From Chitinispirillaceae bacterium (lineage in GTDB: Bacteria; Fibrobacterota; Chitinivibrionia; Chitinivibrionales; Chitinispirillaceae): a DNA stretch of 64,000 nucleotides. The stretch is from positions 1-64,000 of the forward strand of contig JAFGIN010000068.1 of NCBI GenBank assembly GCA_016929595.1. Direction: 5' to 3'. Both the position numbers and the translations under genes were made by a program. Of this stretch, positions 4,079-21,976 are shown piece by piece. Every line of letters begins with the position of its first letter. Within the stretch, counting starts at the first letter, position 1. The notes beneath the pieces were generated by a model. It saw only the letters and a list, made by a program, of their open reading frames with translations, did not search any database and had not been told where the DNA came from.

Positions 4079-4086
4079 TGTCAGAG

Positions 4087-4476
4087 TTACCTTTCAGTCA
4101 AATTCCGTTTAAGGTAAATTCCTGCTGGTAATTTGCTGGTATTTATTCCACAGCATCGCTTTCCCAGAATCGAATAGATCTGTTCTTCGGATTTTAGCTT
4201 TTCATTTTTATAAATAAACCTTTTAACGATATCAGTGTGTTGTCTTTTTGCCTGTGTGTGGGTACTATTATGAATTATAGTTTGCCCACCGGTAATAATC
4301 GTACCTTTTTTAGGATCCATTGTGAGCCAATCTTCAGAATCAAGATAAACAGGTTTAATATTGAGAAGTGCATCTCCCGTTGGCGCAGTATAAGCATGGT
4401 AACTCATAAAGAGCGTATCATTTTCCCAGAAAAATCCGGAACAGCCCATGCCAGCATGCCGCACTGAACCATATTT
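4087..4476 (-). pseudogene. 5'-truncated GH43 gene remnant with intact C-terminal tail
   Basis: The reading frame opens directly after a TAA and encodes about 130 residues that begin in the middle of a fold: YGSVRHAGMGCSGFFWE and then DTLFMSYHAYTAPTGDALL. This matches the last blade of GH43 arabinanase-type enzymes, including the conserved His region (RHAG) and the SYHAY strand. A T9SS-like tail follows (IYSILGKRCCGINTSKLPAG). There is no ATG, signal peptide or catalytic Asp/Glu. The only possible start is a GTG at 4464 with no ribosome-binding site. The upstream neighbour ends 40 bases away and has its own complete C-terminus, so this is not a frameshifted part of that gene. It is best read as the surviving 3' end of a deleted or recombined GH43 gene. 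Confidence 0.75.
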
Positions 4477-4516
4477 TTATTTTTTTACATAAACGTCATC
4501 AAATCCGTATTATTTC

Positions 4517-5755: not shown

Positions 5756-5844
5756 AGTATCGCTTTCGTATCTATAGGTCAAATTGTATCATATTGTAAA
5801 TTCAAGGCAGGTCACCAATAAATAGTGTCACTGTCCCGAATCAT

Positions 5845-7422
5845 TTATTCAGGAAAATGATTATGCTCTGATAACACTCGCAATAAATATGTTCCCCGAC
5901 TCTTTTCAATCAAATTAAATTTATTTACATTAGTATGTGTTGAATTTACACGCGCAATCATCTTTCCTTGAAGATCAAAAAGCTGAAATGTATAGTGGGA
6001 AATGCTATTGGTTAATGCATCAGGAGTTATTGTTGTTGAAGAAATGCTCTGAATACGTAACGTATTCTGAAAGTCTGTTCCTGACATCTTTTTTGATGCT
6101 GAATTTACAACTCCGGTGGTAATTGTATTTTTGACATACTCACCACCCCAATACCTGGTAAAGAGGTAATGTCGTTTCTGTTGCGGTCGGGGAGCAGGGC
6201 AACCATTGGCGACCTTAGTGATATCGAAATTGTTTTTTGAATAGATCGAGGCATTTGTTTCCGTAAAACTGATAATCTCATCGATACCATCACCATTGAT
6301 ATCTCCAGCCATCATGTAGCCTTCATCAAATGATGCAACTTTACTTACTGCACCATCAAAAAGTGCAGGCTTTTCCGGGCCGCGCCAGATCATTAGATGA
6401 TCTGCTCCCGATCCATCCCAGTTATGGCACATGTAGGCTATGCTTCCCCAGCCCGGTCGGGTTTTATAGTAGCTGGTTTTTCCAGTTCCTGAGATCACAA
6501 AGATTGCTTCACTTCCAGGAGTTCCCCGGTCAACCCGATCCTGCCCGCCGATCTCCAGGCCCGGCTGATTGGGAAGAAAATCTCCAATGGTAATATTCTG
6601 TGGCTCGACTGGCTGGTCATTTCGCCACATAAGTTTTCCGTTCTGATGATAGACGGTGACGTCATTTCCTCCGACCGCGATTTCAGTGCCATTTGATGGG
6701 TCCTGATCGATATCACCTACCCAGATACAATCCGCATGACCCTGCTGGTTCATTGACCATTGCTTTTTTCCATCTGGCGTAAGATAATCGAAGCCGCAGA
6801 AAACCTCTTCACGTCCATCATTATCAAAATCAAAAGGCCAGGGAAAATGACCAGTGTTGCCTTTATATGTCCACAGCTGCTTTCCTGTTCTGTCCATTGC
6901 CCAGATCTGATCATAACGATCTTTAAGAATGATGTCCTGCGGTTTTGCCTTACCTGTCAAATTGGCGATAATGATGCAATCGTGGGCGTTCTGATGCGGG
7001 TAGGAAAAAGAAGATTCCTCCTTACCATCTTTACCATTAAAGATACGCACTTTCCCATTCATGCAGGCAAGTACCTCATTAAAGCCGTCCTGATCGATAT
7101 CATACACCTGAGCAGGGATGTCGGATCCTGCGGATGCACCCTTTGAGGGGTCACCCACCTGCCACAACTTTTTACCGTCACAGTCGTAAACGGTAAGCGA
7201 GTTGACTTCATGACCGATGTACCGATCGTCAGCCATGTTATCAGCCTGCATCATCACCATCTCAAGACGCCCATCACCGGTAACATCACCAAGGAGCATT
7301 CTTTTACCGGTTCCTGCTGCACTGATATCGATCTTTTTAATCAGTACCGGTTGTGAAAATATCGCAGCATTCAAAAAAGTCAAAAGAAGTGAGATGAATA
7401 GAATATTTTTATGATTCTGCAT
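5845..7422 (-). CDS. Secreted FG-GAP/calcium-loop beta-propeller protein, possible rhamnogalacturonan lyase relative
   Basis: A 525-residue exported protein with a signal peptide at residues 1-23 (MQNHKNILF, ending FSQ). The mature part is a series of blades carrying calcium-loop motifs DVTGDGRLE, DIDQDGFNE, DFDNDGREE and DINGDGIDE, interleaved with PQQ/WD-like strands such as DCDGKKLWQVG and DRTGKQLWTYKG. This is the pattern of the propeller in family PL11 rhamnogalacturonan lyases, and also of non-enzymatic FG-GAP proteins. The C-terminus (QLFDLQGKMIARV) is a T9SS-like sorting domain. A good AAAGG site precedes the ATG. Its setting among arabinan and pectin enzymes favours a role on the rhamnogalacturonan backbone, but the N-terminal fibronectin-like domain of classic PL11 enzymes is not evident. 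The activity is therefore an inference. Confidence 0.6.
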   Translation of the reverse strand: MQNHKNILFISLLLTFLNAAIFSQPVLIKKIDISAAGTGKRMLLGDVTGDGRLEMVMMQADNMADDRYIGHEVNSLTVYDCDGKKLWQVGDPSKGASAGSDIPAQVYDIDQDGFNEVLACMNGKVRIFNGKDGKEESSFSYPHQNAHDCIIIANLTGKAKPQDIILKDRYDQIWAMDRTGKQLWTYKGNTGHFPWPFDFDNDGREEVFCGFDYLTPDGKKQWSMNQQGHADCIWVGDIDQDPSNGTEIAVGGNDVTVYHQNGKLMWRNDQPVEPQNITIGDFLPNQPGLEIGGQDRVDRGTPGSEAIFVISGTGKTSYYKTRPGWGSIAYMCHNWDGSGADHLMIWRGPEKPALFDGAVSKVASFDEGYMMAGDINGDGIDEIISFTETNASIYSKNNFDITKVANGCPAPRPQQKRHYLFTRYWGGEYVKNTITTGVVNSASKKMSGTDFQNTLRIQSISSTTITPDALTNSISHYTFQLFDLQGKMIARVNSTHTNVNKFNLIEKSRGTYLLRVLSEHNHFPE

Positions 7423-7525
7423 AGCTGGCCTTTCTTATGAAATAATTTTTTACCTCAGTGGCGATGCATGCGCCAATTCGGATATAATGTTTACAGATAC
7501 ATTGTACACATCTCCCGGCGCACTC

Positions 7526-8791
7526 TTAATGAACCATGAATTTTTCATATACGATCCGTTTGTCCCCATACATGCAGGCGACATGCAAACCAGGTTTAAA
7601 CTGTGAAACATTAAAAAACAGTTCCATTGTATTGACGTTATTGTGTCGTGCGACAATTTTACCTGCAAGATCCGTAACGCTGATTGAATTCAGCGTAAAA
7701 CCGCTTTTTATCACCAGTCGCTTGCCGGATATAGCTAAACGGCACACAGACACCCTTTTATCAACAGGTTGACGATTTTTTGCAGGAGTAACAAACTCAT
7801 CACCTTTATCCTGCATAAAATCAGGAAACCCGTCTTCTTTCCAGAGTAATACCCGCGCACGGGTATGTCGATTAGGATCACCTAACGGGTCACCCTTGAT
7901 ATTTTTATAGTCACGGGCATGATAAATCATAATATCTGTTTTTCCATCTTCTGCTATCGTAAATGAATTATGCCCGGGTCCATACCGCTTTAGCGCTTCA
8001 TTAGTAAAAAATACGGGTTGTGGAGATTTATGCCAGTTTTTCGCACTTAGTAAATCTGCCTTTTCATCAATCCACAATAGTCCCATGCAGTAGTTGAAAT
8101 CAGTGGCACTCGCTGAATAGGTCACAAATATTTTTCCGTTTCTTTTAATCACCGCCGGGCCTTCATTGACATTATGTCCCTTTCTTTCCCAGGCTAAATC
8201 GGGTTTTGTTATAATTACTTCAGGACCAGTCAGTTTAGTTGCACTTACCATCTGCGATAATAGTAGTGCCGTACCATCTCCTCTGGTTTGCGCCCATATC
8301 AGATATCTTTTTCCATTGTGTTCAAATGATGTGGCATCCAATGAAAAGCCATCTTGCCGGGTGACAATTCTGCCTTCTTCTGTCCAGGTTCCAACCATCG
8401 GGTCCTGTGCTTGATTTGACAGTACAAACATACGGATTTTCCAGGTATCGACCGCTTCACCCGCTGCAAAATAGATGTACCATTTTCCATCAACCTTATG
8501 TAATTCAGGTGCCCAGATATGTGATCCCATTTCACCAGTACGATGTTTATTCCACAATACTTTTTCTGTTGCATACTTCAATCCATTTATACTGTTTGCT
8601 TTCCGCAATACTATACGATCATACGCCGGAACTGTAGCAATCAGATAATAGGTACCATCATCATTTTTATATATCCAGGGATCGGCACGTTTTTCTGCTA
8701 TGGGGTTTTCAAATACAGGTGTTTGTGCTAAACACAGGGAAGGTAAAACAACAGCTATAAAAAAAGTTCTTATTATCTGAAGTAGTTTCAC
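7526..8791 (-). CDS. Secreted GH43 exo-alpha-L-arabinofuranosidase-like enzyme
   Basis: A 421-residue protein starting at a GTG with AGGA six bases upstream. The signal peptide is residues 1-22 (ending CLAQ). The catalytic domain is a well-preserved GH43 propeller: EKRADPWIYKND (base Asp), FSLDATSFEHNGKRY (modulating Asp), HNVNEGPAVIKRNGK (acid Glu), IWAPELHKVDGKWYIYF (blade two) and GPGHNSF (metal His). The overall pattern resembles the GH43 subfamily of exo-1,5-arabinofuranosidases, which release arabinose from linear arabinan. A C-terminal T9SS-like tail follows (SVTDLAGKIVARHN). The product would complement the endo-arabinanase encoded at 11792-13021. About 100 bases without a recognisable signal separate it from the propeller gene downstream. 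Confidence 0.82.
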   Translation of the reverse strand: MKLLQIIRTFFIAVVLPSLCLAQTPVFENPIAEKRADPWIYKNDDGTYYLIATVPAYDRIVLRKANSINGLKYATEKVLWNKHRTGEMGSHIWAPELHKVDGKWYIYFAAGEAVDTWKIRMFVLSNQAQDPMVGTWTEEGRIVTRQDGFSLDATSFEHNGKRYLIWAQTRGDGTALLLSQMVSATKLTGPEVIITKPDLAWERKGHNVNEGPAVIKRNGKIFVTYSASATDFNYCMGLLWIDEKADLLSAKNWHKSPQPVFFTNEALKRYGPGHNSFTIAEDGKTDIMIYHARDYKNIKGDPLGDPNRHTRARVLLWKEDGFPDFMQDKGDEFVTPAKNRQPVDKRVSVCRLAISGKRLVIKSGFTLNSISVTDLAGKIVARHNNVNTMELFFNVSQFKPGLHVACMYGDKRIVYEKFMVH

Positions 8792-8875
8792 AATAGATCC
8801 TTTTTGTTAGATCACGTATGTATTTATTCTAAGCAAACTGATTCCCATAGAGAAATGCACCTCTTGTAACCTGTT

Positions 8876-10537
8876 TTAATCATTACCCACCGTAATTCTC
8901 ACTATTCTGGACAAAAGCCCATCCTTCTGAATATTTACAATGTAAGTACCCTTTGACAACTTACGCTCAACCGGAATCTTCACCAGACCATTCTCATTAC
9001 TGCTGATTAGATACGATCCGATTTTTTTCCCCTGCAGATCTGTAATGGTTATACAATCATAGTCGACTTCATCCAGCGGTGAAACCTGTATTGTCTGACA
9101 CCTGTTATTAAAAACTGCTGTCAGTTCCTTTGAAGGTGTCGTTTTGATTCTTTTCTCAGAGACAGCAGTTGCACTCTTTTCTTCCAGAATCCACTGCTGA
9201 TTTTCAGCCCGCAGATATGGATAAATGATAACATTGGCACCATTCTGTAATGACAGATCAAGTACATCGAGGCATTTTCCACTTGCGACATTCACAAAAG
9301 CATAATGGTTACCACCCGCTCCAACGGGTTTCCATCTCTGTGTTTTACTGCTGGCAGTAATTGTCTGCTGCTCAACATTTGCAGCATCCTTTGTGGAATT
9401 GGCTGCAGTTCCAAGGCACAATCCACTGTTGACATTTATAATTCGATAGACCCCAGTCCCTGCGGAATCAAATCTCCACAGTTGGTTCTCAGCAGGGGTA
9501 ACACCTGCACTGATTTGATTCTGCTGAACGTTTGCTCCACTTGATTTAGAACTGTTTGCGACTTCCAGGGCCTTATTACTTTTCTTACATGTAAGCAAAT
9601 AGTTGCCACCGCCAAAAGGTGATGGAGCAAGAGCGGCAGCGCCGGCATTTGTCATTACAACAGATTTGATAGTGCCGTCATTATTGTAAAAGAGTTCATC
9701 GATACAGACAGACCGTTTATAAGGTCCCCCTCCGGGAAGCGCTGCATTGTGATAAACAATGTACCATTTATCCCTGAACTCAACAATTGCCTGATGACTG
9801 GTTTCTGAAGGAAGTCGCTCATTTATCAACCGTCCTCTGTGAGTCCATGGTCCGAGAGAAGAATTGCTCGTTGCATAATCGATGTATTCCGGAAACAGCG
9901 CCGCATAGCTAAGATAATAAATATCATTTCGCTTATGTATCCACGGGGCCTCAGTAAAATCCTTGAGTTTAAAATAGCTAAATGCACCATCGGTACTGAT
10001 CATATCACTTTTCAGTTTTACACCCTTACAACTTGTATTCCCCCAGTAAAGATACGCCTGACCATCATCATCAACAAAAGCTGTAGGATCGATATCATCC
10101 CAGGAGATGCTGACATCTTTTGTCATCTGATTGGTAATAAGAGCCGTGCCTCTGGCATCCTTGAATGGTCCCAGCGGATGCTCTCCAACGGCTACTCCAA
10201 CCCCCTTACCTCCACCGCGTTGCTCGGCACAGATATACCAGTAAAATTTCCCGTTTTTCTCGATCACCTGAGACGCCCAGGCATCTTTTGAAGCCCAGGA
10301 AAAATCGCTTACTTTCAGTCTCGGTCCATGGTCTGTCCAGTGGACCAGATCGGTTGAAGAGAATACATACCAGTCCCGCATTACATATCCCGTCGAGCCT
10401 TCATCATGTCCTGCATAGATATAAAAGGTATCCTTATAAACAAGTGCACCTGGATCAGCAGTATATAGATGATTAAAAAGCGGATTCTCCGCTGATAAGG
10501 AAACAAAAAATAGAAAAACAACAAGTAGTTTTCTCAC
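8876..10537 (-). CDS. Secreted GH43 arabinofuranosidase-like enzyme with CBM13 (ricin-type) domain
   Basis: A 553-residue protein starting at GTG behind a GAGGGT site. The signal peptide is about 16 residues (MRKLLVVFLFFVSLSA). The GH43 domain runs to about residue 300: LYTADPGALVYKD (base Asp), DDIDPTAFVDDDGQAY (modulating Asp), DFTEAPWIHKRND (acid Glu) and ETSHQAIVEF (metal His region). Residues 310-450 are a ricin-type beta-trefoil with three QxW repeats (NQLWRF, TQRWKP, NQQWIL), the CBM13 carbohydrate-binding module. The C-terminal 80 residues are a T9SS-like sorting domain (ITDLQGKKIGSYL). It resembles arabinoxylan or arabinan arabinofuranohydrolases. It is a clear paralogue of the gene 18 bases downstream, which lacks the trefoil. 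Confidence 0.8.
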   Translation of the reverse strand: MRKLLVVFLFFVSLSAENPLFNHLYTADPGALVYKDTFYIYAGHDEGSTGYVMRDWYVFSSTDLVHWTDHGPRLKVSDFSWASKDAWASQVIEKNGKFYWYICAEQRGGGKGVGVAVGEHPLGPFKDARGTALITNQMTKDVSISWDDIDPTAFVDDDGQAYLYWGNTSCKGVKLKSDMISTDGAFSYFKLKDFTEAPWIHKRNDIYYLSYAALFPEYIDYATSNSSLGPWTHRGRLINERLPSETSHQAIVEFRDKWYIVYHNAALPGGGPYKRSVCIDELFYNNDGTIKSVVMTNAGAAALAPSPFGGGNYLLTCKKSNKALEVANSSKSSGANVQQNQISAGVTPAENQLWRFDSAGTGVYRIINVNSGLCLGTAANSTKDAANVEQQTITASSKTQRWKPVGAGGNHYAFVNVASGKCLDVLDLSLQNGANVIIYPYLRAENQQWILEEKSATAVSEKRIKTTPSKELTAVFNNRCQTIQVSPLDEVDYDCITITDLQGKKIGSYLISSNENGLVKIPVERKLSKGTYIVNIQKDGLLSRIVRITVGND

Positions 10538-10555
10538 TTTACCCTCAATATATCT

Positions 10556-11767
10556 TTACTGACCAGTAAACGTACCATTCTCACTGATTTTTCTGATCAC
10601 TTGTATATAAATTCCAGAAGCGGAAGTAAGTTTTTTTGTTAATTTTACCCCTGAAGGGGTAAAAATTGATGTACCCTGAAACGCATTGCAGTTTCTCTCC
10701 GGATTAGCGGCAATAACCATTGTCTGTTTTGATGATCGTTCAAAATTCTTAATGCCGTTCTTAAAGGATGATCTCTCCGGAATATCTACGATTGGAATCG
10801 CAGGAACACCCGTTGTCGTTCGAATGACTTTTTTAATAGTCCCGTCACTATTGTATTCAAGTTTATCAATACATACAGAACGCCTGTATGTGCCCCCTCC
10901 GGGCAGACCACCATTGTGATATATAAAATACCAGTTCCCTTTGAACTGTAGAATTGCCTGATGATTTGTTTCGGAATTTTCAAGAAGATCATTGATAATA
11001 CCCTTATATGTCCAAGGGCCCCTGATACTGCTGCCGGTACAGTATTTCGTTGTCGAAGGGTATCCTGATGCATACGAAAGATAATAGAGTTTATCTCTTT
11101 TATGTATCCAGGGGGCCTCAAAAAAGTCCTTCGCATTGACAGTCTCAACTGAGCCATCGAGTTCGGTCATACTGTTCTTCAACTTAACCATCCTGGCTGC
11201 ACCCCAGGAGCCCCAGAAAAGCCATGGGGTTCCATTGTCAATATACACTGCAGGATCGATATTCAAAGTAACAGAATTGGCGGTCTTATCTGTTATCAAT
11301 GGATGTCCGACATCTTTGTAGGGACCAAGCGGATGATCGGCAACAGCGACCCCGATTGAAAACCCTTCACCTACCTTGATAGATTTGTGAGTTACCGATA
11401 CATACCACCAGAACTTTCCATTATGTTCTACAACATGCCCGGCAAATGCATTCCCGCTTGCCCAGGAAAAATCTCCCGCTTTTAATCTGGTTCCATGATT
11501 TGTCCATTTGACCATATCGGCTGAAGAAAAAATATACCAGTCACGCATCAGAAACGATTTACCACTCTGAGTCTGTTCATCATGCCCGGTAAATACATAC
11601 AGGGTATCTTTATAAACAAGCGCACATGGATCGGCAGTAAAAAGCCCTTTGAACAAGGGGTTTCCACTGTACTGCGCCTGTTGAGCATTCAAATCAAATG
11701 ATAATAACAGAAACAAAATGAAATAAAATGATGTACTATTTTTCAACGGAACGCTCCATTTTGACAA
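10556..11767 (-). CDS. Secreted GH43 arabinofuranosidase-like enzyme, paralogue of upstream-strand neighbour
   Basis: A 403-residue protein. The first codon is a TTG eight bases after GAGAAG; another TTG seven codons in is an alternative. The signal peptide covers about residues 1-28 (ending NAQ). Its motifs parallel the 8876-10537 product: LFTADPCALVYKDTLYVFTG (base Asp), NIDPAVYIDNGTPWLFWG (modulating Asp), DFFEAPWIHKRDKLYYLSYA (acid Glu) and ETNHQAILQF. The shared wording of whole blades (DFSWAS, WKYIFSS-like strands, AVADHPLGPYKD) indicates a tandem duplication. It has no CBM13 domain. The tail (IFTPSGVKLTKKLTSASGIY) is a shorter T9SS-like end. Only 24 bases separate it from the endo-arabinanase, which suggests co-transcription. 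Confidence 0.78.
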   Translation of the reverse strand: MSKWSVPLKNSTSFYFILFLLLSFDLNAQQAQYSGNPLFKGLFTADPCALVYKDTLYVFTGHDEQTQSGKSFLMRDWYIFSSADMVKWTNHGTRLKAGDFSWASGNAFAGHVVEHNGKFWWYVSVTHKSIKVGEGFSIGVAVADHPLGPYKDVGHPLITDKTANSVTLNIDPAVYIDNGTPWLFWGSWGAARMVKLKNSMTELDGSVETVNAKDFFEAPWIHKRDKLYYLSYASGYPSTTKYCTGSSIRGPWTYKGIINDLLENSETNHQAILQFKGNWYFIYHNGGLPGGGTYRRSVCIDKLEYNSDGTIKKVIRTTTGVPAIPIVDIPERSSFKNGIKNFERSSKQTMVIAANPERNCNAFQGTSIFTPSGVKLTKKLTSASGIYIQVIRKISENGTFTGQ

Positions 11768-11791
11768 TGTTTCAACTTCTCAATAGTTCTT

Positions 11792-13021
11792 CTACATTAT
11801 TGAAATTAGCTTTTCATACTTAAGACCGGAATTCTGCTCCAGCACAAAAAGATAAAGACCACGGCTGAGAGTACATGCGTTCAGTTGCAGATGATTCACC
11901 CCTGCTTTTGCCCCTCGGGAAACTGTTGAGAGAACAACCTTACCGGAAACGGTGAAAAGATGCATATTGACAGAACTCTCTTTTTCCATAAAAAAGGTAA
12001 TTTTCCCATCTGCATATCCGGCGTTAAAAGGCCCGTTACGCTTTACTTCAATACAATTGTTAATTGCTACAGGAGTACAGGGATTGAAATCAGTATTCAC
12101 TTCCGGCCAGCCATCTTTCCAGGAGAGAGTGCTGATTTTCAGTTTTGATGCTCCATTCTGGTTTTTATCATAAAAATGATATGACATGTATTCTTTGCCA
12201 TTTTCAGTAAAAAATCCAAAATGACCCGGTCCGATATATCTGCCCTGCGTTTTCAGAATAGTGGTTCCGCCTCCGCTGCTGGTTGATTTACCATTCTTAT
12301 CAAGATATGGTCCGGTAGGAGATGTAGACCGCCCTACATTTATATAATAAGTACTTTTTACGCCATCACAACATTTTCCGCGATTGAAAAACAGATAATA
12401 ATAATCACCATGATGAATAATACCGGCAGCTTCAGGATCATTATTTGCAATATATTTCAAATTATCTTTCCTGACAGGCTTGCCTGTGGTCGAATCGAGT
12501 TCTGTGATGACAATACCCGACCAGAAAGATCCATATGCAAGCCAGACTTTACCATCATGACGCATAATAGCCGCATCAATTGCGTTATGGTTGGAGGAAT
12601 TGGTAGTGGAAACCACCATCCCTTTATCCTCCCATTTCGGGTTTCTGAGAGATGTCGTGGTGGCCAATCCGATTGCTGATTGACGGGAACCAAACGATGA
12701 GCACGAATAGTAAACATTCCAGCGGTTGTTCATATAGAATACATCAGGAGCCCAGAAGTGACCGGCAAAACCTGACACATGCGTTTTAATCCATGATGGA
12801 AAACCTGATGGAAAAATCGCCCCGCTGCGACGCCAGGTGCATAGATCAGTTGAATATGCATACTCAACACCATTACTGGTATAAAAGGTGTAATAACGAT
12901 CGTTCTCCTTAACAATTGTCGATGGATCATGCACACCGTAATCCTTCTGTGCATATACCCAAGATAAACACGTTACGATACTTAACACAATCATACTGAC
13001 AGGATTATTTTTTTTTATCAT
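11792..13021 (-). CDS. Secreted GH43 endo-1,5-alpha-L-arabinanase
   Basis: A 409-residue protein from the ATG at 13021, chosen because GGAGG lies five bases upstream and the signal peptide (MIKKNNPVSMIV, ending VYAQ) then starts normally; an in-frame upstream start at 13081 lacks these. The GH43 propeller begins at once: YGVHDPSTIVKENDRYY (base Asp), SGFAGHFWAPDVFYMNN (blade two), HNAIDAAIMRHDGKVWLAYG (modulating Asp), NNDPEAAGIIHHGDYYYLFF (acid Glu) and YIGPGHFGFF (metal His). This combination, with LAYGSFWSGI, is characteristic of endo-arabinanases, which cut the alpha-1,5 arabinan backbone. The C-terminal domain (HLFTVSGKVVLSTV) is a T9SS-like sorting domain. Family and activity are the best supported of the locus. 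Confidence 0.87.
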   Translation of the reverse strand: MIKKNNPVSMIVLSIVTCLSWVYAQKDYGVHDPSTIVKENDRYYTFYTSNGVEYAYSTDLCTWRRSGAIFPSGFPSWIKTHVSGFAGHFWAPDVFYMNNRWNVYYSCSSFGSRQSAIGLATTTSLRNPKWEDKGMVVSTTNSSNHNAIDAAIMRHDGKVWLAYGSFWSGIVITELDSTTGKPVRKDNLKYIANNDPEAAGIIHHGDYYYLFFNRGKCCDGVKSTYYINVGRSTSPTGPYLDKNGKSTSSGGGTTILKTQGRYIGPGHFGFFTENGKEYMSYHFYDKNQNGASKLKISTLSWKDGWPEVNTDFNPCTPVAINNCIEVKRNGPFNAGYADGKITFFMEKESSVNMHLFTVSGKVVLSTVSRGAKAGVNHLQLNACTLSRGLYLFVLEQNSGLKYEKLISIM

Positions 13022-13089
13022 GGATCCCTCCCTTAAAATAATGTCAACAAGCATCGTATGTAAAAACGATATTACACACATTTTCCATA

Positions 13090-14751
13090 TTATCTGAATT
13101 CAACCAGTACATCTTCTTCCTTCTGGTTCATGTAGCACAATTTTATCCATTGAGCTTCAGGTACCAGGTTCATGATTCGTACTTCGTCAATTTTACCATC
13201 GAAATAGGCACATCCCTGTATCTGTGGTAACAAATCAAGCCGCAAATGACATCCTATAGTAAAATCATACCCCGTAATCCGTTCCTCAGTATTTGGATTA
13301 AGTAACATAGTATCAATTACAAGCTCACCATTGACATAAAGATATTGTCTGTTTCCAGCACGTACTCCGGTAAGGTAAATCCATTGATTTATTCCTGGAG
13401 CCGGTGTCTTTTTGAATTCGCTATATTGCCAACCTGTACGGCTTTTAAACTCTACAAATTCCCATGACGCAGCAGTGTCATGGAAACATTTGTACTGTAA
13501 ATAATACTGTTGATAACCTTTACTAACTATACCATGCCAGATGGTATCTATAGAATCAGCATTCGCCCATAGCGATACCGAATAATTGCCGTTTTCAGGG
13601 AAATTGATTTTACTGTCTGCGGTGCTAAGGATAAGTATATAGCTGCTTTTTCCATCAAATTCCAATGCTTTCCCAATGATCCCCAAAACTGACGATGATG
13701 TGTTCATACCGTATTGGGTACCATTGTAACTATTCATGGTTGCATCAAAGGAGATTGAACCGGGCGGTTCTGCCAGATGCCATACTCCCTGAAAACCCTT
13801 TGCTGTATCAAAAACCGATTCACTCGTTGATACCGGTCGGGCATCAGGATTTCCCCAATACATGACAAAATACTGATGATCACTATTACCATATACGGTG
13901 TCAACCTTTACCCAGACAGCCGCTTGTTTACTTTCAGCATCGTAGCTTTCAATTTCAAAAGGAAGCGGAGTATCATCGGGTTTCTTGAAACGCAGATCAC
14001 TCCCATCAGGTCGTGCAAGTCCAAAATCGAAATGGTCATTCGAAAGTCTGATCAGAACAGGGAACTGATATACATTACCCGATACACCTGCACCACTTGC
14101 GGTTGTATTGAGTCCGATTTTCATTGAATGCTTCCACCCTGAATAATCAGCGATTACCATTGTCTCGCCAGCAGCAAGGGACATTCCGTTTTTAACAGAG
14201 TGAATATTCTGATCCTCCTGGTTAACATAATATAATGCTGGTATATACCCGGCCGGAACTGAATCCAGATATCCGATACCATTACGGATCGCTCCGAAAC
14301 AGGATGTACCGGGAACATATACATAACAACCAGGAGTGATTGCGCATTCAGGAATCTGAACCTCAATCCTGCCAGGTTCTGCAAGCGAAAGTGCCGATGC
14401 ATAGGTAATACTTGTATCAACCAGTACCGATGTGACAAGTGCACGCTTACCATTTTCAATAGAAACAGCTTCTATGGTATAGATACCCGATGGCAGACTG
14501 TCAAACTCGTATTTTCCTTCCGAATCGGTTGTATCTATACCTGGTAAAATGGTATCACAAAAAGGATCATAATCAGCTGTCCTGAGAGTTACCCGGGTAT
14601 TTCGAGCCGGTAAATTATTTTCCAGGCTGACGATACCGGTAATCTTACCATTATCAGTTGAACTGCTTCCTCCCGCAACATCAACAGGGCTGCAGTAGAA
14701 ACCGGTTGTCATTACAACCAGAAATAGTGTCTTAAAAATATGATTTTTCAT
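13090..14751 (-). CDS. Exported DUF2341-LamG protein coupled to TIGR02147 regulator
   Basis: A 553-residue exported protein. A hydrophobic segment at residues 5-19 ends in a Cys (TGFYC), which may be a weak lipobox. Residues 35-205 contain two carboxypeptidase-regulatory-like beta-sandwiches (GKITGIVSLENNLPARNTRV, DSEGKYEFDSLPSGIYTIEA). Residues 210-315 match DUF2341 (FPVLIRLSNDHFDFGLARPD, DHQYFVMYWGNPDA). Residues 320-553 form a LamG/concanavalin-A-like lectin domain (GVWHLAEPPG, GKALEFDGKSSYI, FDGKIDEVRIMN). No catalytic signature is seen, so binding of a glycan is the likely role. Its ATG overlaps the regulator's stop as ATGA, which points to translational coupling. The same N-terminal layout recurs in the lipoprotein at 16833-19175, next to the other TIGR02147 gene. 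Confidence 0.75.
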   Translation of the reverse strand: MKNHIFKTLFLVVMTTGFYCSPVDVAGGSSSTDNGKITGIVSLENNLPARNTRVTLRTADYDPFCDTILPGIDTTDSEGKYEFDSLPSGIYTIEAVSIENGKRALVTSVLVDTSITYASALSLAEPGRIEVQIPECAITPGCYVYVPGTSCFGAIRNGIGYLDSVPAGYIPALYYVNQEDQNIHSVKNGMSLAAGETMVIADYSGWKHSMKIGLNTTASGAGVSGNVYQFPVLIRLSNDHFDFGLARPDGSDLRFKKPDDTPLPFEIESYDAESKQAAVWVKVDTVYGNSDHQYFVMYWGNPDARPVSTSESVFDTAKGFQGVWHLAEPPGSISFDATMNSYNGTQYGMNTSSSVLGIIGKALEFDGKSSYILILSTADSKINFPENGNYSVSLWANADSIDTIWHGIVSKGYQQYYLQYKCFHDTAASWEFVEFKSRTGWQYSEFKKTPAPGINQWIYLTGVRAGNRQYLYVNGELVIDTMLLNPNTEERITGYDFTIGCHLRLDLLPQIQGCAYFDGKIDEVRIMNLVPEAQWIKLCYMNQKEEDVLVEFR

Positions 14752-15599
14752 ACATCTTTCTCCGCATTGCCGCCAGCTTCAAGTTTTCTGCTTAGCGGAA
14801 AGAGCTGCATTTGCATCTGATACACGCGGTCAGAACATTTATCGTTATTCACTATAGAAACCAACCGGTCCCGGAATGCTGCCATTTCCGCAACCAGCAC
14901 ATTATAACACTCTTTTGAGATTCCAACTGTAACTCCATAGATCTGTCGTTCCTCAATAGAAGTCTCATCCAGTGCAATTTCTGCTTTTTTGAGCATCTCC
15001 CGATTGAATGAACGCACAGCCATGCGACCGACACTGCTGTCAGATATGATCGCAGCTGCGGTCTGCCTGAAAGTCCCATTCGGAGCCAGCTCTATGAGAT
15101 TAAGATCTTTTAAGAGTTTGACAGCAAAACGCGCCTCCCGGACTGCAATCGGAGGCGAAACGGCTGCAGCCAGTTCTTTGTAATTACCCCTGAAATCAAA
15201 GTGACAGACAACTTCACGAATAACAGGGACGAACCAGTGGTTGTAATATTCGTGCTGAAGAGCGGTAAGCCGCTGCTCTCTTACCGACTGCATCATCGAG
15301 AGCATCATCGTGTAGTGTTGCTGCTTCTCTCTGGCCAATTTTGCCTGGTTGAAAAACACCAGGTGCCTGAAAAAGGCTGCTTCCTTATCACTGAACTTTA
15401 AAGCTGCAAGAAATTTTTCTATGGATATTGTTGTAAGGTTTCGCTTTGACTCAATCACCTGTTTGAGAAAACTTGGGGAATTGATTCCTGCTTTGGTAGA
15501 AAAATACCGGTAGGAAAAATATTTTGATTTCTCTTTGTTTTCCTCATAATAGTCTTTTAGAAATAAACGGTAATTTATATATGAAAAAATTGAGTCCAT
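14748..15599 (-). CDS. TIGR02147-family (DUF4423) regulator at head of the arabinan/pectin locus
   Basis: A 283-residue cytoplasmic protein. The start at ATG 15599 is chosen by alignment with the paralogue at 15995: MDSIFSYINYRLFLKDYYEE matches the family's N-terminal FxYxxYRxFLxDYYE pattern. The frame remains open to 15659. Residues 1-65 include a helix-turn-helix-like segment (FSTKAGINSPSFLKQVIESK). The remainder is helical and matches the DUF4423 region (PPIAVREARFAVKLLKDLNL, then FRQTAAAIISDS). No signal peptide or membrane segment is present. The family is known from Fibrobacter and related phyla without an assigned function; DNA binding is an inference. The stop codon overlaps the next gene's ATG. 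About 13 kb of secreted carbohydrate-active genes follow on the same strand. Confidence 0.8.
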   Translation of the reverse strand: MDSIFSYINYRLFLKDYYEENKEKSKYFSYRYFSTKAGINSPSFLKQVIESKRNLTTISIEKFLAALKFSDKEAAFFRHLVFFNQAKLAREKQQHYTMMLSMMQSVREQRLTALQHEYYNHWFVPVIREVVCHFDFRGNYKELAAAVSPPIAVREARFAVKLLKDLNLIELAPNGTFRQTAAAIISDSSVGRMAVRSFNREMLKKAEIALDETSIEERQIYGVTVGISKECYNVLVAEMAAFRDRLVSIVNNDKCSDRVYQMQMQLFPLSRKLEAGGNAEKDV

Positions 15600-15994
15600 A
15601 GTAGTGTAATATAAGCCGCCTGAGCACTCCCGGTATCGGAAATACGCATCAACAATCAAATAGTGTATACGCAGCGTATACGATCATCAACATAACACAT
15701 TGAAATACAACAGTTATTAACTATTACATTTTTAAAATTTAACTTTTTTTGTATACTCAACCATATTATGACATCCAATGAAAAGAATTGCGTTCCTGCT
15801 CAGAGAAAAGAACGGCATCCAGGAAGATATTGCGCTGACTGAGAAACCATCCTGCCATCAAATAGCTTTTTAATATCAACAATAACAATGACTTACGTAG
15901 CATTTTGCTGACCACACTGAAGCGTTTTATAATAATACCGGATGCAGATGTCTGTCAAATAAGGTAGATTATACTATGAAAGGGTCTTTTGCAC
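15600..15994. promoter_or_regulatory. Divergent control region of the two TIGR02147 modules
   Basis: This 395-base stretch separates two oppositely transcribed regulators. It holds no convincing gene and contains the perfect palindrome at 15665-15681. A second GTATAC hexamer, the core of that palindrome, occurs at about 15750, followed by an AT-rich patch. The region must carry both promoters unless transcription starts inside the reading frames; no promoter hexamers could be assigned with confidence. Confidence 0.55.
15665..15681. promoter_or_regulatory. Perfect palindrome GTATACGC-A-GCGTATAC, candidate operator
   Basis: Two perfect 8-base arms flank a single A. The site lies 66 bases before the chosen start of the minus-strand regulator and about 315 bases before the plus-strand one. 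Its size and dyad symmetry suit a homodimeric DNA-binding protein. Autoregulation by the TIGR02147 protein is an inference. Confidence 0.5.
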
Positions 15995-16843
15995 GTGAAA
16001 AAATCTATATACAGTTATACCGACTATCGTAAATACCTCAGTGATATGTATCTGCAGATGAAAGCAAAGCGTTCATCATGCTCACATCGGTATATTGAAC
16101 AGCATGTAGGTATATCCCAGGGATATTTTTCGCGTATTATAAGTGGTACCAAAAATATTACCGACAGGGTCATTCAGCAGTTTATTCAATTTTTAAAGCT
16201 CTCAAAAAATGAGGGACGTTTTTTTGAAAATCTTGTGAAATATACCCAGACCGATGATCCATCAGTAAAACAGATGTACTATTCGCGCATGATGACTCTT
16301 GCATCCCCTTCAGTAGCACCTCTGGCGAAGGAACAGTTTTCCTACTTTACCGAGGTTCATCATGTCGCAGTCCGTGCACTGGTCGAGCTTACCCCGATCG
16401 ATGATCAATCTGATTTTGATAAAATCGGGAGTCTTTTAATGCCGCCGGTATCAGGAAATGCATTACAGGAATCTATACGTCTGCTCGAAAAGCTTGGGCT
16501 TGTTACAAAAGATGAAAATGGCAGCTATCACGTAACAGAACGGATCGTTTCGACGGGCAGTCATCCCGGTGACCTGGTTATTCGAACGTATCTTCAAAAC
16601 TCTCTTAAAACTGCCTGTGAAGCACTCAATACGGTTATTGCCAAAGAACGGATGGCATCTGTCATGACCGTTTCAATCTCTCCGCAAACCTATGAACAGG
16701 TACTTGAGCTCTTAGCTGAGACACGTGCAAGGATCAACACACTGGTTGAGCAGGAAAATGATGCAACACGAATTTACCAACTGTCTATGAATCTTGTTCC
16801 TGTTTCGAAACAGATTGACAGAGGTAGATCAGATGAGAATTAA
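15995..16843 (+). CDS. TIGR02147-family (DUF4423) regulator, second copy
   Basis: A 282-residue cytoplasmic protein paralogous to 14748-15599. The GTG at 15995 gives a start (VKKSIYSYTDYRKYL) that lines up with its paralogue and lies ten bases after AAAGGG; a TTG at 15989 is the alternative. The helix-turn-helix-like segment is HVGISQGYFSRIISGTKNIT, followed by the helical DUF4423 region (GNALQESIRLLEKLGLVTKD, then YHVTERIVSTGSHPGDL). No export signal is present. Its stop codon lies inside the next gene, whose ATG starts eleven bases earlier, so the two are translationally linked. Downstream are an LRR lipoprotein and a GH116-type glycosidase. A role in their control is inferred from order only. 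Confidence 0.8.
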   Translation: MKKSIYSYTDYRKYLSDMYLQMKAKRSSCSHRYIEQHVGISQGYFSRIISGTKNITDRVIQQFIQFLKLSKNEGRFFENLVKYTQTDDPSVKQMYYSRMMTLASPSVAPLAKEQFSYFTEVHHVAVRALVELTPIDDQSDFDKIGSLLMPPVSGNALQESIRLLEKLGLVTKDENGSYHVTERIVSTGSHPGDLVIRTYLQNSLKTACEALNTVIAKERMASVMTVSISPQTYEQVLELLAETRARINTLVEQENDATRIYQLSMNLVPVSKQIDRGRSDEN

Positions 16844-19175
16844 TTGTGGACTGTTCTTTTTTGATTCCACGGTACTGCAACGTTTTTTCGTTTCTTCCCT
16901 GTCATCGATTTCCGGTCATCAGCTGAAAGAGTGGCTCAGGCCAGTCCCGATTTTCTTTATGTCAACATTTCTATTTTTAAGCTGTCAAATCGATGTGACT
17001 TCCGGCGGCCCTGGAACCAGCACTGAAGTGGTTGGTTGTATTAAAACCGCTGATGAAAAAGCCGCTTCCGGCCTTACGGTTACCCTGTACCGCTATAGTG
17101 AGGGCACAAATTCCTACAGCAGTTCTAAAGTGGTAACCAGCATAAATGGAGAGTTCAGGTTTGATGATATCGATACCGGCCTGTATCTTCTTGATGCAAC
17201 CGATCAACATGGCAACCGTGTAATGCAGGTAGTTACTCTGAGTGCTGATCCTCAAAGTCGTCATCTGGGAACCTGCTACATTGAACCGATGGGATCTCTG
17301 AGTGGATATATTGCGAACACAACAGATACATTAATTGGTGTAGACGCAAGGGTACTTATCTTTAAAGACAAGTTTTCCATTGATCGTATAGAAGGTGTGA
17401 ATGATGGTTTTACGATTAACACACTTCCTCCTGGAATGTTTGACATCACGATCCTTGGACTGATCGTACGTTCAGACAGTCGAATGCCAATAGATGTAAC
17501 TTTTCTTGAATCAACCGTAAAAGTTTCTTCCAATTCATCAACAGTCATCGATACAATCGATCTCAACGAAGCCACGATTCTCAACAATGATACAAGCATT
17601 GCAGAACTGAATCTGTTAAAAGATTTTCTGGAAAAAGCAGGTAGTACTCAGTCTGTTCCTGCAAGCTGGTTTCATCCTACTACCGGACACCTTGGTTCTA
17701 TTGATGTACATTCGACAAATAAGATGTCTCTTGATAGTGCAATCCGGATACTTGCATCTTTTCCCGGCCTCGAGAGACTCCATCTGTCCGGATTTGGAGG
17801 AGCACACATCCCAGAGACGCTTTTTACTTTCAAGTCCCTCTCGGAGCTTTCACTAACCAACGGGGAAATTGTCACCATCCCCGAAGAGATTGTCAATTTA
17901 AAATTTCTGCGTTCGATGCGATTTATTAATAATAAAATAACTACACTTCCTGATTATATTCTTAACAAAAGTCTTCCGCGTCTGGAACGTATTGACATTA
18001 CAGGTAATCCTTTAAAACGAATCGAATGGGAACAGCAGCAACTGATAAATTCATTGCTCGATGACATGATAGAAGTTGTCCTCGCAGAAGTACCTTTTGC
18101 AATAAATGAACGGGATTACCGCGCACTTCTTGCCATTTTCGATAAAAACAATCTTAATGACAGAATGGTGCACTCCTATATCGCTACAGGAAGCGGATTA
18201 AATGACCGCGATGCAGTTGTTAAACTTTCCATCAGCGATGCAACTATATCTACTTTACCGGATGAGTTGAGTGATCTTATTAACCTCCGGTCGTTGCATA
18301 TCTTCAGGAATTCGATGGATACACTTCCGGAAGTATTCGGATCACTTTACAGCCTGGAGAATCTGCACATTACCAATGGTACCATACGTGCATTGCCATC
18401 TCAAATGGGGCGATGCACAAACCTTAAAACGATCAATTTTTCAAATAATTACATTCAACGTCTGCCAAAATGGCTTGGTCTTTTACGTTCTTTGAAATGC
18501 GCAGATTTTTCCAACAACTGTATTGATACGACAAACACAATTATCCCGTCTACCTGTATTGTTGACCAGCTGCAGTGTGGTATTTCATCACCTGCACCAG
18601 ACTCACTTTACCTTAAAGATATATCAATTGTTAACAAAATTATCAACTTCAATAATGCTGCAGATTTACCACTAATGGAATATATACAGTGCCGTAATAA
18701 TCGCGTGGTACTGCTTCGGATGGTTCTTAAAGATAATGCCAGTCTTGCATCCTATGATACCCTCTGCGCCATGGCTCTTGAACTGGACAGTCTTAAAACT
18801 CTGCATGTAGTATTAGGTAATACAGAAGAAAAACTCCCTGTGACCTCAAAAATATTCCCGTCTCTGGAGGGATTTATCGGAACTGGCGGCGCACTTCAAT
18901 TCATAGATCATTCATTTGCAATTTCATTCCCATCATTGAAAAGTATTGCTCTTCCCGGAAACAGGTTCTCCAGGATACCCGAAGCAATCAAATCTCTGCC
19001 ATTACTTGTTTCGATAGATCTGTATTTCAATTTCTTATCAGGCCTGTCGAACGAAGACTCGCTCTGGCTTAGTTTACGGTCTAATCCTGACCGGCGGGTA
19101 TTATGGGATCACGATTTTGGTTATTCGTACATGCAGGGCCTTTACTGGAGTGAATCACAATTCAGTGGCAATTAA
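16833..19175 (+). CDS. LRR lipoprotein coupled to TIGR02147 regulator
   Basis: A 780-residue protein from the ATG at 16833, which follows GAGGTAGATCAG. A longer frame from 16794 has no ribosome-binding site. The n-region is unusually long (about 35 residues) before the hydrophobic stretch FFMSTFLFLSC, whose Cys is a plausible lipidation site. Next come two carboxypeptidase-regulatory-like beta-sandwiches (residues about 60-250: VVGCIKTADEKAASGLTVTL, DGEFRFDDI-like INGEFRFDDIDTGLYLL). Leucine-rich repeats fill the rest, for example LERLHLSGFGGAHIPETLF, LRSLHIFRNSMDTLPEVFG and LKTINFSNNYIQRLPKWLG. LRR domains usually bind proteins or glycans, and no enzyme motif is visible. It shares its stalk design with the LamG protein at 13090-14751. 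Confidence 0.77.
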   Translation: MRINCGLFFFDSTVLQRFFVSSLSSISGHQLKEWLRPVPIFFMSTFLFLSCQIDVTSGGPGTSTEVVGCIKTADEKAASGLTVTLYRYSEGTNSYSSSKVVTSINGEFRFDDIDTGLYLLDATDQHGNRVMQVVTLSADPQSRHLGTCYIEPMGSLSGYIANTTDTLIGVDARVLIFKDKFSIDRIEGVNDGFTINTLPPGMFDITILGLIVRSDSRMPIDVTFLESTVKVSSNSSTVIDTIDLNEATILNNDTSIAELNLLKDFLEKAGSTQSVPASWFHPTTGHLGSIDVHSTNKMSLDSAIRILASFPGLERLHLSGFGGAHIPETLFTFKSLSELSLTNGEIVTIPEEIVNLKFLRSMRFINNKITTLPDYILNKSLPRLERIDITGNPLKRIEWEQQQLINSLLDDMIEVVLAEVPFAINERDYRALLAIFDKNNLNDRMVHSYIATGSGLNDRDAVVKLSISDATISTLPDELSDLINLRSLHIFRNSMDTLPEVFGSLYSLENLHITNGTIRALPSQMGRCTNLKTINFSNNYIQRLPKWLGLLRSLKCADFSNNCIDTTNTIIPSTCIVDQLQCGISSPAPDSLYLKDISIVNKIINFNNAADLPLMEYIQCRNNRVVLLRMVLKDNASLASYDTLCAMALELDSLKTLHVVLGNTEEKLPVTSKIFPSLEGFIGTGGALQFIDHSFAISFPSLKSIALPGNRFSRIPEAIKSLPLLVSIDLYFNFLSGLSNEDSLWLSLRSNPDRRVLWDHDFGYSYMQGLYWSESQFSGN

Positions 19176-19243
19176 TACAACAGCACAGATAGTTTGATCA
19201 GAGTTATACAATTTAATGATAGATAACAGATGTGAGGATGTAT

Positions 19244-21976
19244 ATGTTTAACAATGCAGAAAGAATCTTTTTTTTCATTATTGGAATAATGTGTGCAGAA
19301 GTACTGTCTCTTTCAGAAACCGGCGGCATTCCAACAGGTGGTATGGGCACTGGATATGTCAAATACAATGCCCGCTCAGGTGAATTTGCTGTAAGTGGGA
19401 AAATTCCACCTGCAGCGTCTGATATGGAAAATGAGTTCAGCCAGAAGAAATCAATCAGTTCGGGATTTCATCTCTTTGCAGGAGGGAAATCCGTTATCAA
19501 AGCCCGGACAAACGACGAAAGTGCGCATTTCCCTTTGTATACAGCAAGGTACACTCCTCTTTATACAGCATCTGACGAAATCAACAAGGTAAATTTTTCA
19601 CTTAAAGCCTTCTGTCCGTTTATTCCGGGAGACAATCCTCTTTACTATCAACTGGCAACTTCACCTCTGGCTTTTTTTGAAATCACAGCAGAAAACAGTA
19701 GCAATGCGGCTGTTGATGTAGCAGTGGCAATGGAATTTACCAACAGGTCTGCACTACAAAATCTCTTAGGTGGAGCTGATACCGGGACAATAATAATTCA
19801 GGACACATGCAGTGCAGTCTCTTATTCTGGAAACACACTTGATGGTAATGCATATTTGTTAATGAAATGTGATGGTAATTCACCTGTATACAGTGCCGGA
19901 TTTAAAGACAGCTTTGCAATTAGCGGTGATCTTGCAAGTTCTACAGGTTATGGAAATTGTGTATCTGCAAAATGCATCATACCTCCAGGTGAATCTGTAC
20001 GTTTTAAATTTACGTTAGCCTGGTGGAGGTTATTCGTTTCGGATACAGATCGTTATGGCACTGGTGTAAATGATAGCGACAACTACTACTATCACAACTT
20101 TTACACAACATCCGGAGATGCCGCTCATTTTGGAGAGCAGTACTTTAATCTCGTTCGCGATGGTGTTACAACCATGGTCAATCGGACAATGGGTTCAAAT
20201 TTTCCAGAATGGTATAAAGAGAGGCTTTTAAACAACCTGTATCCTATGGTCAATAACGCAATTTGCGCCAAAGATGGGCGCACAGCATTCTGGGAGGGAC
20301 AATATCCAGTTATCGGCAGTATCGATCAGGCCCAGCATGCATCACTCTGGTTTACATTCAACTGGCCGAAAAATCAATGGCATGAATTGCAGTATTGGAG
20401 CCGCACAGCGCATACCGGAATAAATGAGGATACGACTCTGAAGGGACAAATACATCATGATTTTAATCAGGGTCCGGAAAAATTTACTTTTGATGCACAT
20501 TTCATGTGTCCGTGGGATAATTACCTTCGTAACGATTACTGGTATTGTCCTAATTCCACCACCTGGTCGGATCTCAACGTAATGGCAATCTTTAAACTAT
20601 ATGAATTAATGCTGGCGACAGGTGACCGAGATTCTCTTCTGGTATATTATCCAAAAATTCTCCTGACCGCAGAACGGTTACTCTTACAATGCACCCAATC
20701 ACAGTCCAGATTGCCTCTGAACACCAGAAGCACGTATGACTCTGATAATTTTATTCTTCCACAATACGTTTCCGGAATCTCACTTGTAGCATTTCTCGCA
20801 ATGGAAGAGCTTGCAAAATTTTCAGGTGACACTCTTACCGCACAAAAGTTCCGTGAATGGTATACTGCTGCACGCAGCGAATTCAGAACAGTTCTGTTCA
20901 ATACAGAATTCTGCAACCGCAGGAGCAACGCTGAAGGTGATATAGCGGGATACAGCTGGGGGAATTTTTTCTCTCTTGAATCGATCATGGATGCAGACGT
21001 CATTAACACCGGATGTCAAAGACTCTGGAATGTTTACGCTGTCGAGACCAGAAATAAACTGGGGAGCTGGCACTTTTATACATGTGATCACTGGGGAGGA
21101 GCAGAAATAGCACGCGGCGCTCCGGATACGGCGATGAGCCTTTTTAAACTGGATTATGACTATCATCATGATTCAAACAGAAGCTACGTATTCTGGCAGA
21201 GTCTCTGGAACTCCAACAAAACACATGACAGTTATGTAACTGCCCCAAGCGCCTGGCGTTCCTATTTCCAGATGACCGGCTACATGATTGACAATGCTAA
21301 CAACCGTCTCTGGATCAGACCAAAAGTTCCATCATCAATGGAAGGTAAAATAACCAACGCACCCCTACCCAATCCCGGAGGATGGGGTATGCTTAACTAT
21401 CAGGAAACGCCATCCACACCTGGCAGTTTTACACAGAGTATCCGGGTAATGTTTGATTCACTTGTCGCCGTAAATGAACTTGTTCTGAAAAATAATACCG
21501 GTTCAGATACACCTTTTATTAAAGTCAATAACCTGACTCCGGAAACCGGTAGTTTTACTGTTACCACACAGGACTGGGGAATCGAAAAAAATATCCGGAT
21601 CGCATTTGCCACTCCTTTATCTATTGATAAAAACGGAATATCTGTTCAGGCATCTTCTCAACCGATATCCGTTAATCCATCAAGGCCCATCAAGGCCAGG
21701 TCCCGTTTGTCTATTTTATCCGGATCGCTCAACATCGGTAAGCCAATCCGTTTTTCAACCGGCAGTGCTGGAACGATTACCGTAGAATTACTCTCATTAA
21801 ACGGGGCAAAACTCGCAACGTTATACAAACAGAATGTCCTTGAGGCCGGAAATCATTCATTTATCTGGAACGGAGCGACACGCGGAACAAGAGGTTTAAC
21901 AACACAGATAATGATTTTAAGGATTTCTTCCCCAGATGGGTGTGTGTCCAGGCAGGTGATCGTGAATGGTCATTAG
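19244..21976 (+). CDS. Secreted GH116-type glycosidase
   Basis: A 910-residue protein from the ATG at 19244, six bases after GAGG; GTG 19232 and ATG 19238 are in frame but have poorer spacing. The signal peptide is residues 1-22. SETGGIPTGGMGTGYVKYNA is the conserved N-terminal opening of GBA2/GH116 beta-glucosidase-like enzymes. The all-alpha catalytic domain includes RTAFWEGQYPVIG, with Glu351 at the family's nucleophile position, and NTRSTYDSDNF, with Asp499 at the acid/base position. Known members cleave beta-glucosides or beta-xylosides. The C-terminal 90 residues are a FlgD-like/T9SS domain (GTITVELLSLNGAKLATLYK). It follows the LRR lipoprotein by 68 bases and is the only enzyme of this small plus-strand module. 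Confidence 0.75.
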   Translation: MFNNAERIFFFIIGIMCAEVLSLSETGGIPTGGMGTGYVKYNARSGEFAVSGKIPPAASDMENEFSQKKSISSGFHLFAGGKSVIKARTNDESAHFPLYTARYTPLYTASDEINKVNFSLKAFCPFIPGDNPLYYQLATSPLAFFEITAENSSNAAVDVAVAMEFTNRSALQNLLGGADTGTIIIQDTCSAVSYSGNTLDGNAYLLMKCDGNSPVYSAGFKDSFAISGDLASSTGYGNCVSAKCIIPPGESVRFKFTLAWWRLFVSDTDRYGTGVNDSDNYYYHNFYTTSGDAAHFGEQYFNLVRDGVTTMVNRTMGSNFPEWYKERLLNNLYPMVNNAICAKDGRTAFWEGQYPVIGSIDQAQHASLWFTFNWPKNQWHELQYWSRTAHTGINEDTTLKGQIHHDFNQGPEKFTFDAHFMCPWDNYLRNDYWYCPNSTTWSDLNVMAIFKLYELMLATGDRDSLLVYYPKILLTAERLLLQCTQSQSRLPLNTRSTYDSDNFILPQYVSGISLVAFLAMEELAKFSGDTLTAQKFREWYTAARSEFRTVLFNTEFCNRRSNAEGDIAGYSWGNFFSLESIMDADVINTGCQRLWNVYAVETRNKLGSWHFYTCDHWGGAEIARGAPDTAMSLFKLDYDYHHDSNRSYVFWQSLWNSNKTHDSYVTAPSAWRSYFQMTGYMIDNANNRLWIRPKVPSSMEGKITNAPLPNPGGWGMLNYQETPSTPGSFTQSIRVMFDSLVAVNELVLKNNTGSDTPFIKVNNLTPETGSFTVTTQDWGIEKNIRIAFATPLSIDKNGISVQASSQPISVNPSRPIKARSRLSILSGSLNIGKPIRFSTGSAGTITVELLSLNGAKLATLYKQNVLEAGNHSFIWNGATRGTRGLTTQIMILRISSPDGCVSRQVIVNGH

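Follow-up and report, generated by a model that had tools for sequence, protein, structure and literature searches.

The window analysed in this study is a 64,000-nucleotide stretch of DNA from Chitinispirillaceae bacterium (contig JAFGIN010000068.1, positions 1 to 64,000), and our subject is two modules within it, each made of a regulator of the TIGR02147/DUF4423 family and a lipoprotein encoded directly behind it. The two regulator genes diverge from one control region, as had been claimed in the original prediction for this stretch. Regulator 1 (14748..15599, minus strand, 283 amino acids) and regulator 2 (15989..16843, plus strand, starting at TTG 15989 or at GTG 15995) reach 267 and 222 bits with TIGR02147, where the cut-off of 50 is passed by a wide margin, over profile positions 1-271 and 2-271 of 272, and 86 and 89 bits against the Pfam domain DUF4423 (cut-off 30). 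The predicted overlaps between the genes of each module are exact: the regulator and lipoprotein of module 1 share the ATGA at 14748-14751 on the minus strand, and those of module 2 share the 11 bases at 16833-16843 on the plus strand.

Both partners, lipoprotein 1 (13090..14751, minus strand, 553 amino acids) and lipoprotein 2 (16833..19175, plus strand, 780 amino acids), carry an export signal, as predicted; what had been described as a hydrophobic export segment is a lipoprotein signal, with its lipobox cysteine at Cys20 in the first and, after a long n-region, at Cys51 in the second. A short motif follows the cysteine in each, AGGSSSTDNG at residues 26-35 of lipoprotein 1 (14647..14676, minus strand) and its diverged form SGGPGTSTE at residues 57-65 of lipoprotein 2 (17001..17027, plus strand). 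The two carboxypeptidase-regulatory-like domains once assigned to each protein are represented by a single CarboxypepD_reg match apiece, of 22.5 and 22.9 bits and under the curated Pfam cut-off of 32.3, and the structural model of lipoprotein 1 has strand-rich N-terminal domains that would be compatible with two sandwiches. The far ends do differ as expected, with DUF2341 and a LamG-like domain in lipoprotein 1 and leucine-rich repeats in lipoprotein 2 (Pfam).

Pairing in the source genome and across the phylum

To survey the genome of origin (6.6 Mb, 224 contigs), each TIGR02147 locus was fetched and the next gene downstream was inspected. The genome holds 54 TIGR02147 matches, of which 51 are full length, and a lipoprotein gene lies directly downstream in 48 of these 51, a count that takes in C160, whose partner sits inside a longer frame and was recognised later. 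Lipoproteins were called by a simple lipobox rule and not by SignalP; the lipobox cysteine is invariant across the 48 aligned partners. Most often the two genes meet in an exact 4-base overlap (24 cases), and within an interval of +/-30 bases the same detector finds a lipoprotein partner for about 44 of the 51 regulators versus 12 of 287 background open reading frames (ORFs). With 48 of 51 full-length regulators so accompanied, chance is excluded as the cause of the pairing. The three exceptions are C12, a divergent copy without a partner, and C76 and C149, whose successors are exported-looking proteins other than lipoproteins, of 955 amino acids (L080:2364-5231, with weak tetratricopeptide repeat (TPR) matches) and 965 amino acids (L037:3138-6035); these could possibly represent a second type of TIGR02147 partner.

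The pairing also holds when read from the side of the lipoprotein. When the whole genome was searched with a profile built from the N-terminal 130 residues of 39 partners, all 45 matches with E <1e-10 adjoined a TIGR02147 gene, 44 of them as downstream partners, with no orphan partner among the 45. Weaker matches were partners again or covered part of the stalk domain only. The sole strong match that does not lie downstream of a regulator is a lipoprotein gene divergent from the C94 regulator (C94:31163; L039:7445, plus strand), which has no post-cysteine motif.

Of 120 Fibrobacterota genomes, 113 carry TIGR02147, some of them in about 50 copies, and wherever sampling was broad the regulators proved to be paired. 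Of the relatives' loci with enough sequence, 62 of 69 are paired with a lipoprotein (61 by the detector, plus L108, which it missed); in G040, whose kinship to the genome of origin is at the level of the phylum only, 25 of 26 regulators are paired, and in a second sample, drawn from its genus g24, all 30 loci are, locus L082 being present in both samples. A repeated pairing had been central to the original prediction, and the survey that could have spoken against it strongly confirmed it, both in this genome and in its relatives. Two side observations concern copy number. No TIGR02147 gene was found in the small genomes (2-2.9 Mb) G009, G015, G018-G023 (genus g10), G029 and G038 (genus g17), while other genera of the same family or order reach about 50, which makes g10 and g17 natural controls for the role of the system; G118 (family f10, 6.8 Mb) gave 88 candidates at first look, possibly a larger expansion than that in the genome of the window. 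Furthermore, at L117 and L120 of G040 three modules stand in a row, with a common QKGPFV-like segment in the L117 partners, and these triplets are probably the product of recent local duplication.

The pairs are inherited as pairs, orthologous regulators retaining orthologous lipoproteins across genera. At L111, the nearest named relative locus, in a Chitinispirillaceae metagenome-assembled genome, the regulator is 72% identical to regulator 1 and the lipoprotein 52-56% identical to lipoprotein 1, so the lipoprotein changes faster; signal peptides are not conserved, at about 12-38% identity between orthologous modules. The idea of a freely exchangeable ligand domain was therefore abandoned, since orthologous pairs stay together. 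Clusters of C-terminal similarity were too loose for exchanges to be counted.

Regulator fold, candidate operators and the post-cysteine motif

The AlphaFold model of regulator 1, built with 51 paralogues (mean predicted local distance difference test, pLDDT, 89.3), begins with a helical helix-turn-helix (HTH) domain (pLDDT about 98), which is followed by a winged helix in the centre and by further helices at the C-terminus. A structure prediction for this N-terminus had been proposed at the outset, and in Foldseek the HTH domain matches C.BclI, C.AhdI and SinR (probability 0.91-0.97), while no whole-length structural match for the regulator was found; profile matches of the regulator to C proteins reach a best E of 0.004. 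The regulator is accordingly predicted, from its model, to be a DNA-binding protein with an Xre-type HTH and a winged helix. Paralogous regulators are mostly 20-40% identical, and in the recognition helix positions 46, 47 and 50 are highly variable beside conserved positions 45, 48 and 51, which is what one would expect of paralogues that each recognise a different site.

Candidates for such sites were sought by aligning the upstream DNA of orthologous regulators, where palindromes are retained and flanks have diverged. In the window, the palindrome GTATACGCAGCGTATAC at 15665..15681 (strandless), about 82 bases before regulator 1, is its predicted private operator. This site had already been flagged in the original prediction, and its 17 bp, GTATACGCTGCGTATAC at about -82, correspond to GTATACGTTTCGTATAC at about -87 in L111; allowing up to 1 mismatch, it occurs once in 6.6 Mb, which fits a private, cis-acting site and leaves no second such site for regulator 1. 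The conserved palindromes differ between ortholog groups, with GGACAnnnnTGTCC upstream in three genomes of the C48 group and GTTTTCnnnnnGAAAAC-like sites in three genomes of the C90:153260 group. A test against shuffled upstream DNA supports the window pair (arm 7, 0 of 200 shuffles), the C90 group of six, L084/L087 and the C175 group; as the test ignores the common descent of the upstream DNA, it is supportive and not conclusive. Taken alone, the window palindrome is not significant (51 of 300 shuffles are as good), and its weight comes from its conservation and uniqueness and not from its shuffle score. A single operator for all regulators was not found; TGTTG...CAACA precedes 5 of 51 regulators and 0 of 132 controls. 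In a 17-member group of genus g24 (L159-L180) the conserved upstream element seems to be of another kind, resembling TGTTCCC/GTGTTC words repeated in direct orientation and no palindrome.

On the side of the lipoprotein, the partners carry just after the lipidated cysteine a motif of the form G-[GSA]-[GTS]-[ST]-[ED]-[TV]-[GT]-N-[GPA], or approximately [AS]G[GT]x[ST][ED]TxN. Its median score is 12.0 in partners versus -4.7 in 58 other lipoprotein-like ORFs of the same genome, with an area under the curve of 0.98 for a matrix trained on the same partners that it scores, and the sole high-scoring "other" lipoprotein turned out to be the C160 partner. A de novo search in G040, which belongs to another class of the phylum, recovered [AS]G[GT][TS][SE][ED][TEP]N at 9.1 per sequence, versus at most 5.9 with shuffled residues and at most 5.7 in other lipoproteins. 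In one Fibrobacter-type group of g24, GTVTDTGNT is present in 17 of 17 modules, and many Fibrobacter-type partners keep the motif where the stalk is no longer seen. The common stalk originally thought to be the shared element does not hold that place; judged from the sequences, what all classes have in common is the short post-cysteine motif.

Codons vary within the motif (in the nine sequences that fit the strict pattern), which indicates that it is conserved as protein, and on the same nine sequences we rejected a DNA or RNA element. A general sorting signal for lipoproteins was also rejected, the motif being absent from the other lipoproteins sampled in this genome and in G040, and it may instead be a sorting signal for this lipoprotein class alone. 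In the model of lipoprotein 1 (pLDDT 84.7), most of the motif falls within a stretch predicted to be disordered, residues 19-32 having values under 50; the motif looks like a short linear motif that would be read by another factor.

Outer domains and neighbouring genes

Beyond the motif the 48 partners of this genome, like partners in general about 200-900 amino acids long, carry diverse domains (CarboxypepD_reg in 36, LamG-like in 19, DUF2341 in 18, leucine-rich repeats in 4 and Kelch in 2). One of the many jelly-roll domains to which the C-terminal lectin-like domain of lipoprotein 1 is similar is domain 4 of the arabinanase AbnA (TM score 0.71 by target length, 18% identity). Fold matches of lipoprotein 1 to sialidases and clostridial receptor-binding domains were set aside as reflecting the common lectin-like jelly-roll only.

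Carbohydrate genes follow both modules, as predicted, with glycoside hydrolase family 43 (GH43) on one side and GH116 on the other (Pfam). Behind lipoprotein 1, a same-strand run (757..13081, minus strand) begins after 8 bases and comprises six GH43 genes (11792, 10556, 8876, 7526, 4517 and 2393), an RGL11-like/FG-GAP protein (5845) and a Pel9A-like beta-helix protein (757). Since module 1 leads this run and its ortholog L111 leads a GH127 arabinofuranosidase gene, the gene content suggests an arabinan or pectin theme for the two. Behind lipoprotein 2, a GH116-type gene (19232..21976, plus strand; Pfam scan) follows after 56 bases. Further on, at 22310-26691, lie genes for a class I fructose-bisphosphate aldolase (Pfam), a protein that reads like Ku, and a LigD with polymerase, phosphoesterase and ligase domains (Pfam); the last two, in the same direction as module 2, are likely a non-homologous end joining pair.

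Over the genome, the 10 kb downstream of modules on the same strand hold 14 of 66 genes with a type IX secretion system tail and 7 of 15 GH43 genes, versus about 4% expected, the GH43 count being clustered, with 5 of the 7 in the window. The claim that modules lead carbohydrate loci thus describes a common arrangement and not a general one: in about 40% of modules, the 400 bases that follow contain no co-directional gene (some of these modules end at a contig end). As many modules consist of regulator and lipoprotein only, the cis target of the regulator would often be the lipoprotein itself.

Possible mechanisms and known systems

The result that we regard as solid, on comparative and predicted grounds, is a phylum-wide two-gene cassette, in which a putative HTH/winged-helix regulator with a predicted operator of its own is joined by a lipoprotein that bears the dedicated post-cysteine motif. 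To explain it, we tentatively favour a model in which each pair is a self-contained, cis-acting, closed-loop surface-recognition cassette, which we consider quite possible without holding it to be established. Based on the sequences and the model, the soluble regulator would bind a private operator upstream of its own operon. The gene order, regulator then lipoprotein, usually overlapping or abutting, suggests translational coupling, and plant-wall enzyme genes often come next. The lipoprotein would then be displayed in the envelope, where its outer domain (lectin-like, leucine-rich repeat, Kelch or other) would bind a wall polymer, and a factor common to all modules would recognise the disordered post-cysteine motif and place or process the lipoprotein. 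In the last and weakest step, the state of the lipoprotein, loaded or free, could feed back through this common factor on its own regulator, and expression of each operon would be set by its own surface protein. We favour such a loop because the pair is inseparable and often stands alone, though the return path has only indirect evidence behind it.

Several observations weigh against it. The shuffle test found no shared palindrome in several ortholog groups, and upstream palindromes are only modestly commoner than those before other genes. No membrane segment was found in the regulators. The modules have no recurrent membrane-spanning or third component, and with no neighbour family in more than 7 of them we rejected the idea that they contain a relay gene in common. 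Nor can information specific to one pair reside in a motif that every module has. Finally, co-variation in this genome is weak between regulator and stalk (Mantel r 0.21, a value reached in 7 of 2000 permutations) and gives no clear signal between regulator and C-terminal domains (r 0.11, reached in 104 of 2000). Because the motif is common to all modules, its reader must be a common factor, and if that reader is sorting machinery, the regulator would be an ordinary local transcription factor. The strongest alternative starts from there: the regulator would be a local one-component factor that senses an imported oligosaccharide or metabolite, the lipoprotein an adhesin or glycan-binding protein of the cell surface that is expressed along with it, and the motif no more than a sorting tag of the class, with no signal crossing the envelope. 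The missing membrane component, the weak co-variation, the near uniformity of the motif (as in a sorting tag), the enzyme genes behind many modules and the lectin-like fold of lipoprotein 1 all favour this arrangement, which we hold to be a real if somewhat doubtful possibility. Yet it does not by itself account for a lipoprotein that is always with a regulator and never solitary, nor does it explain the modules with no gene close behind, and no ligand-binding pocket was identified.

The self-regulating cassette also has a bolder form, in which signalling across the envelope would proceed throughout the phylum without a kinase, a sigma factor or a membrane-spanning sensor: the lipoprotein would report its ligand through the disordered motif beside the lipid anchor, which one shared relay or protease would read, and would so control its own private regulator. 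We consider this unlikely, as regulators without a membrane segment, the lack of a recurring third gene and weak co-variation do not support a trans-envelope signal. A related possibility, in which a fragment of the signal peptide would serve as a pheromone, was rejected because signal peptides are not conserved between orthologs. Each regulator might also simply switch its own lipoprotein on or off, for instance to vary adhesins or receptors from cell to cell in fibre attachment or phage escape, with no specific glycan sensed. The many paralogous, fast-evolving surface-type proteins, the modules without enzymes and the private operator with no other genomic site would suit such repertoire control, but the enrichment of enzyme genes behind modules and the arabinan-type enzymes beside both module 1 and L111 make it improbable. 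That an ancestral operon was duplicated many times and that pair and motif persist by descent alone is very improbable. The partners of this genome are all homologous at the N-terminus, and each pair is passed on as a unit, yet pairs are hardly ever split among regulators so divergent. Another class has also kept the motif although it lacks the adjacent domain, and this in a predicted unstructured stretch from which drift should have removed it.

Major degraders of plant fibre belong to the Fibrobacterota, and the cassettes bring a specific motif, predicted operators and a predicted DNA-binding fold, with which the choice of enzymes in these bacteria becomes concretely testable. A role is thereby proposed for a large protein family of unknown function and, if the motif is a docking or processing site, it would represent a new route for information across the Gram-negative envelope. 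By score, both regulators are full members of TIGR02147 (Fsuc_second)/DUF4423, which the NCBIfam and Pfam entries describe as a paralog family and a domain of unknown function. Our literature search, whose coverage left out most subscription papers, found no mention of TIGR02147, met DUF4423 only in a list of Bdellovibrio proteins, and returned no account of the regulator-lipoprotein pairing, the partner gene, the motif or the operator. A review of hemicellulase regulation covers hybrid two-component systems, sigma/anti-sigma factors and catabolite repression and does not mention Fibrobacterota (PMC10766802).

The cassettes share features with several known systems. Like SigI/RsgI of Clostridium thermocellum, which has nine RsgI (PMC12203970), they form several paralogous units tied to plant-wall enzyme genes, each unit of SigI/RsgI sensing a different substrate. 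However, RsgI is a membrane-spanning anti-sigma factor that is cut by RseP and ClpXP (PMC12203970), whereas the outer partner here, a lipoprotein, has no additional membrane helix and its regulator does not belong to the sigma factors; no Pfam domain of a sigma or anti-sigma factor was found in the pair, which sets it apart from SigI/RsgI and from extracytoplasmic function (ECF) systems. With the hybrid two-component and ECF sigma/anti-sigma systems of Bacteroides (PMC10766802) the cassettes have in common a regulator encoded with a carbohydrate locus and a proposed extracytoplasmic recognition of glycans. They differ in having no kinase, receiver, sigma or anti-sigma domain (Pfam finds no histidine kinase or receiver domain in the pair) and no recurring third gene. 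The gene order, with an HTH regulator ahead of an exported product, also recalls the RRNPP/Rgg type (PMC9765709), but winged helix and helices stand here in place of a TPR fold, for which Pfam, the model and Foldseek gave no match in the regulator, the partners are lipoproteins of the lengths given above and not short peptides, and their signal peptides vary between orthologs.

The SusD/E/F-type surface glycan-binding lipoproteins of Bacteroidota are lipid-anchored, built of beta-sandwich or lectin-fold domains and encoded in carbohydrate operons. The partners described here resemble them in their predicted lipid anchor, their predicted beta-sandwich or lectin-fold domains and their carbohydrate gene context. 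They differ in the domains that they carry, in the motif dedicated to them behind the cysteine and in the HTH gene that obligatorily accompanies them.

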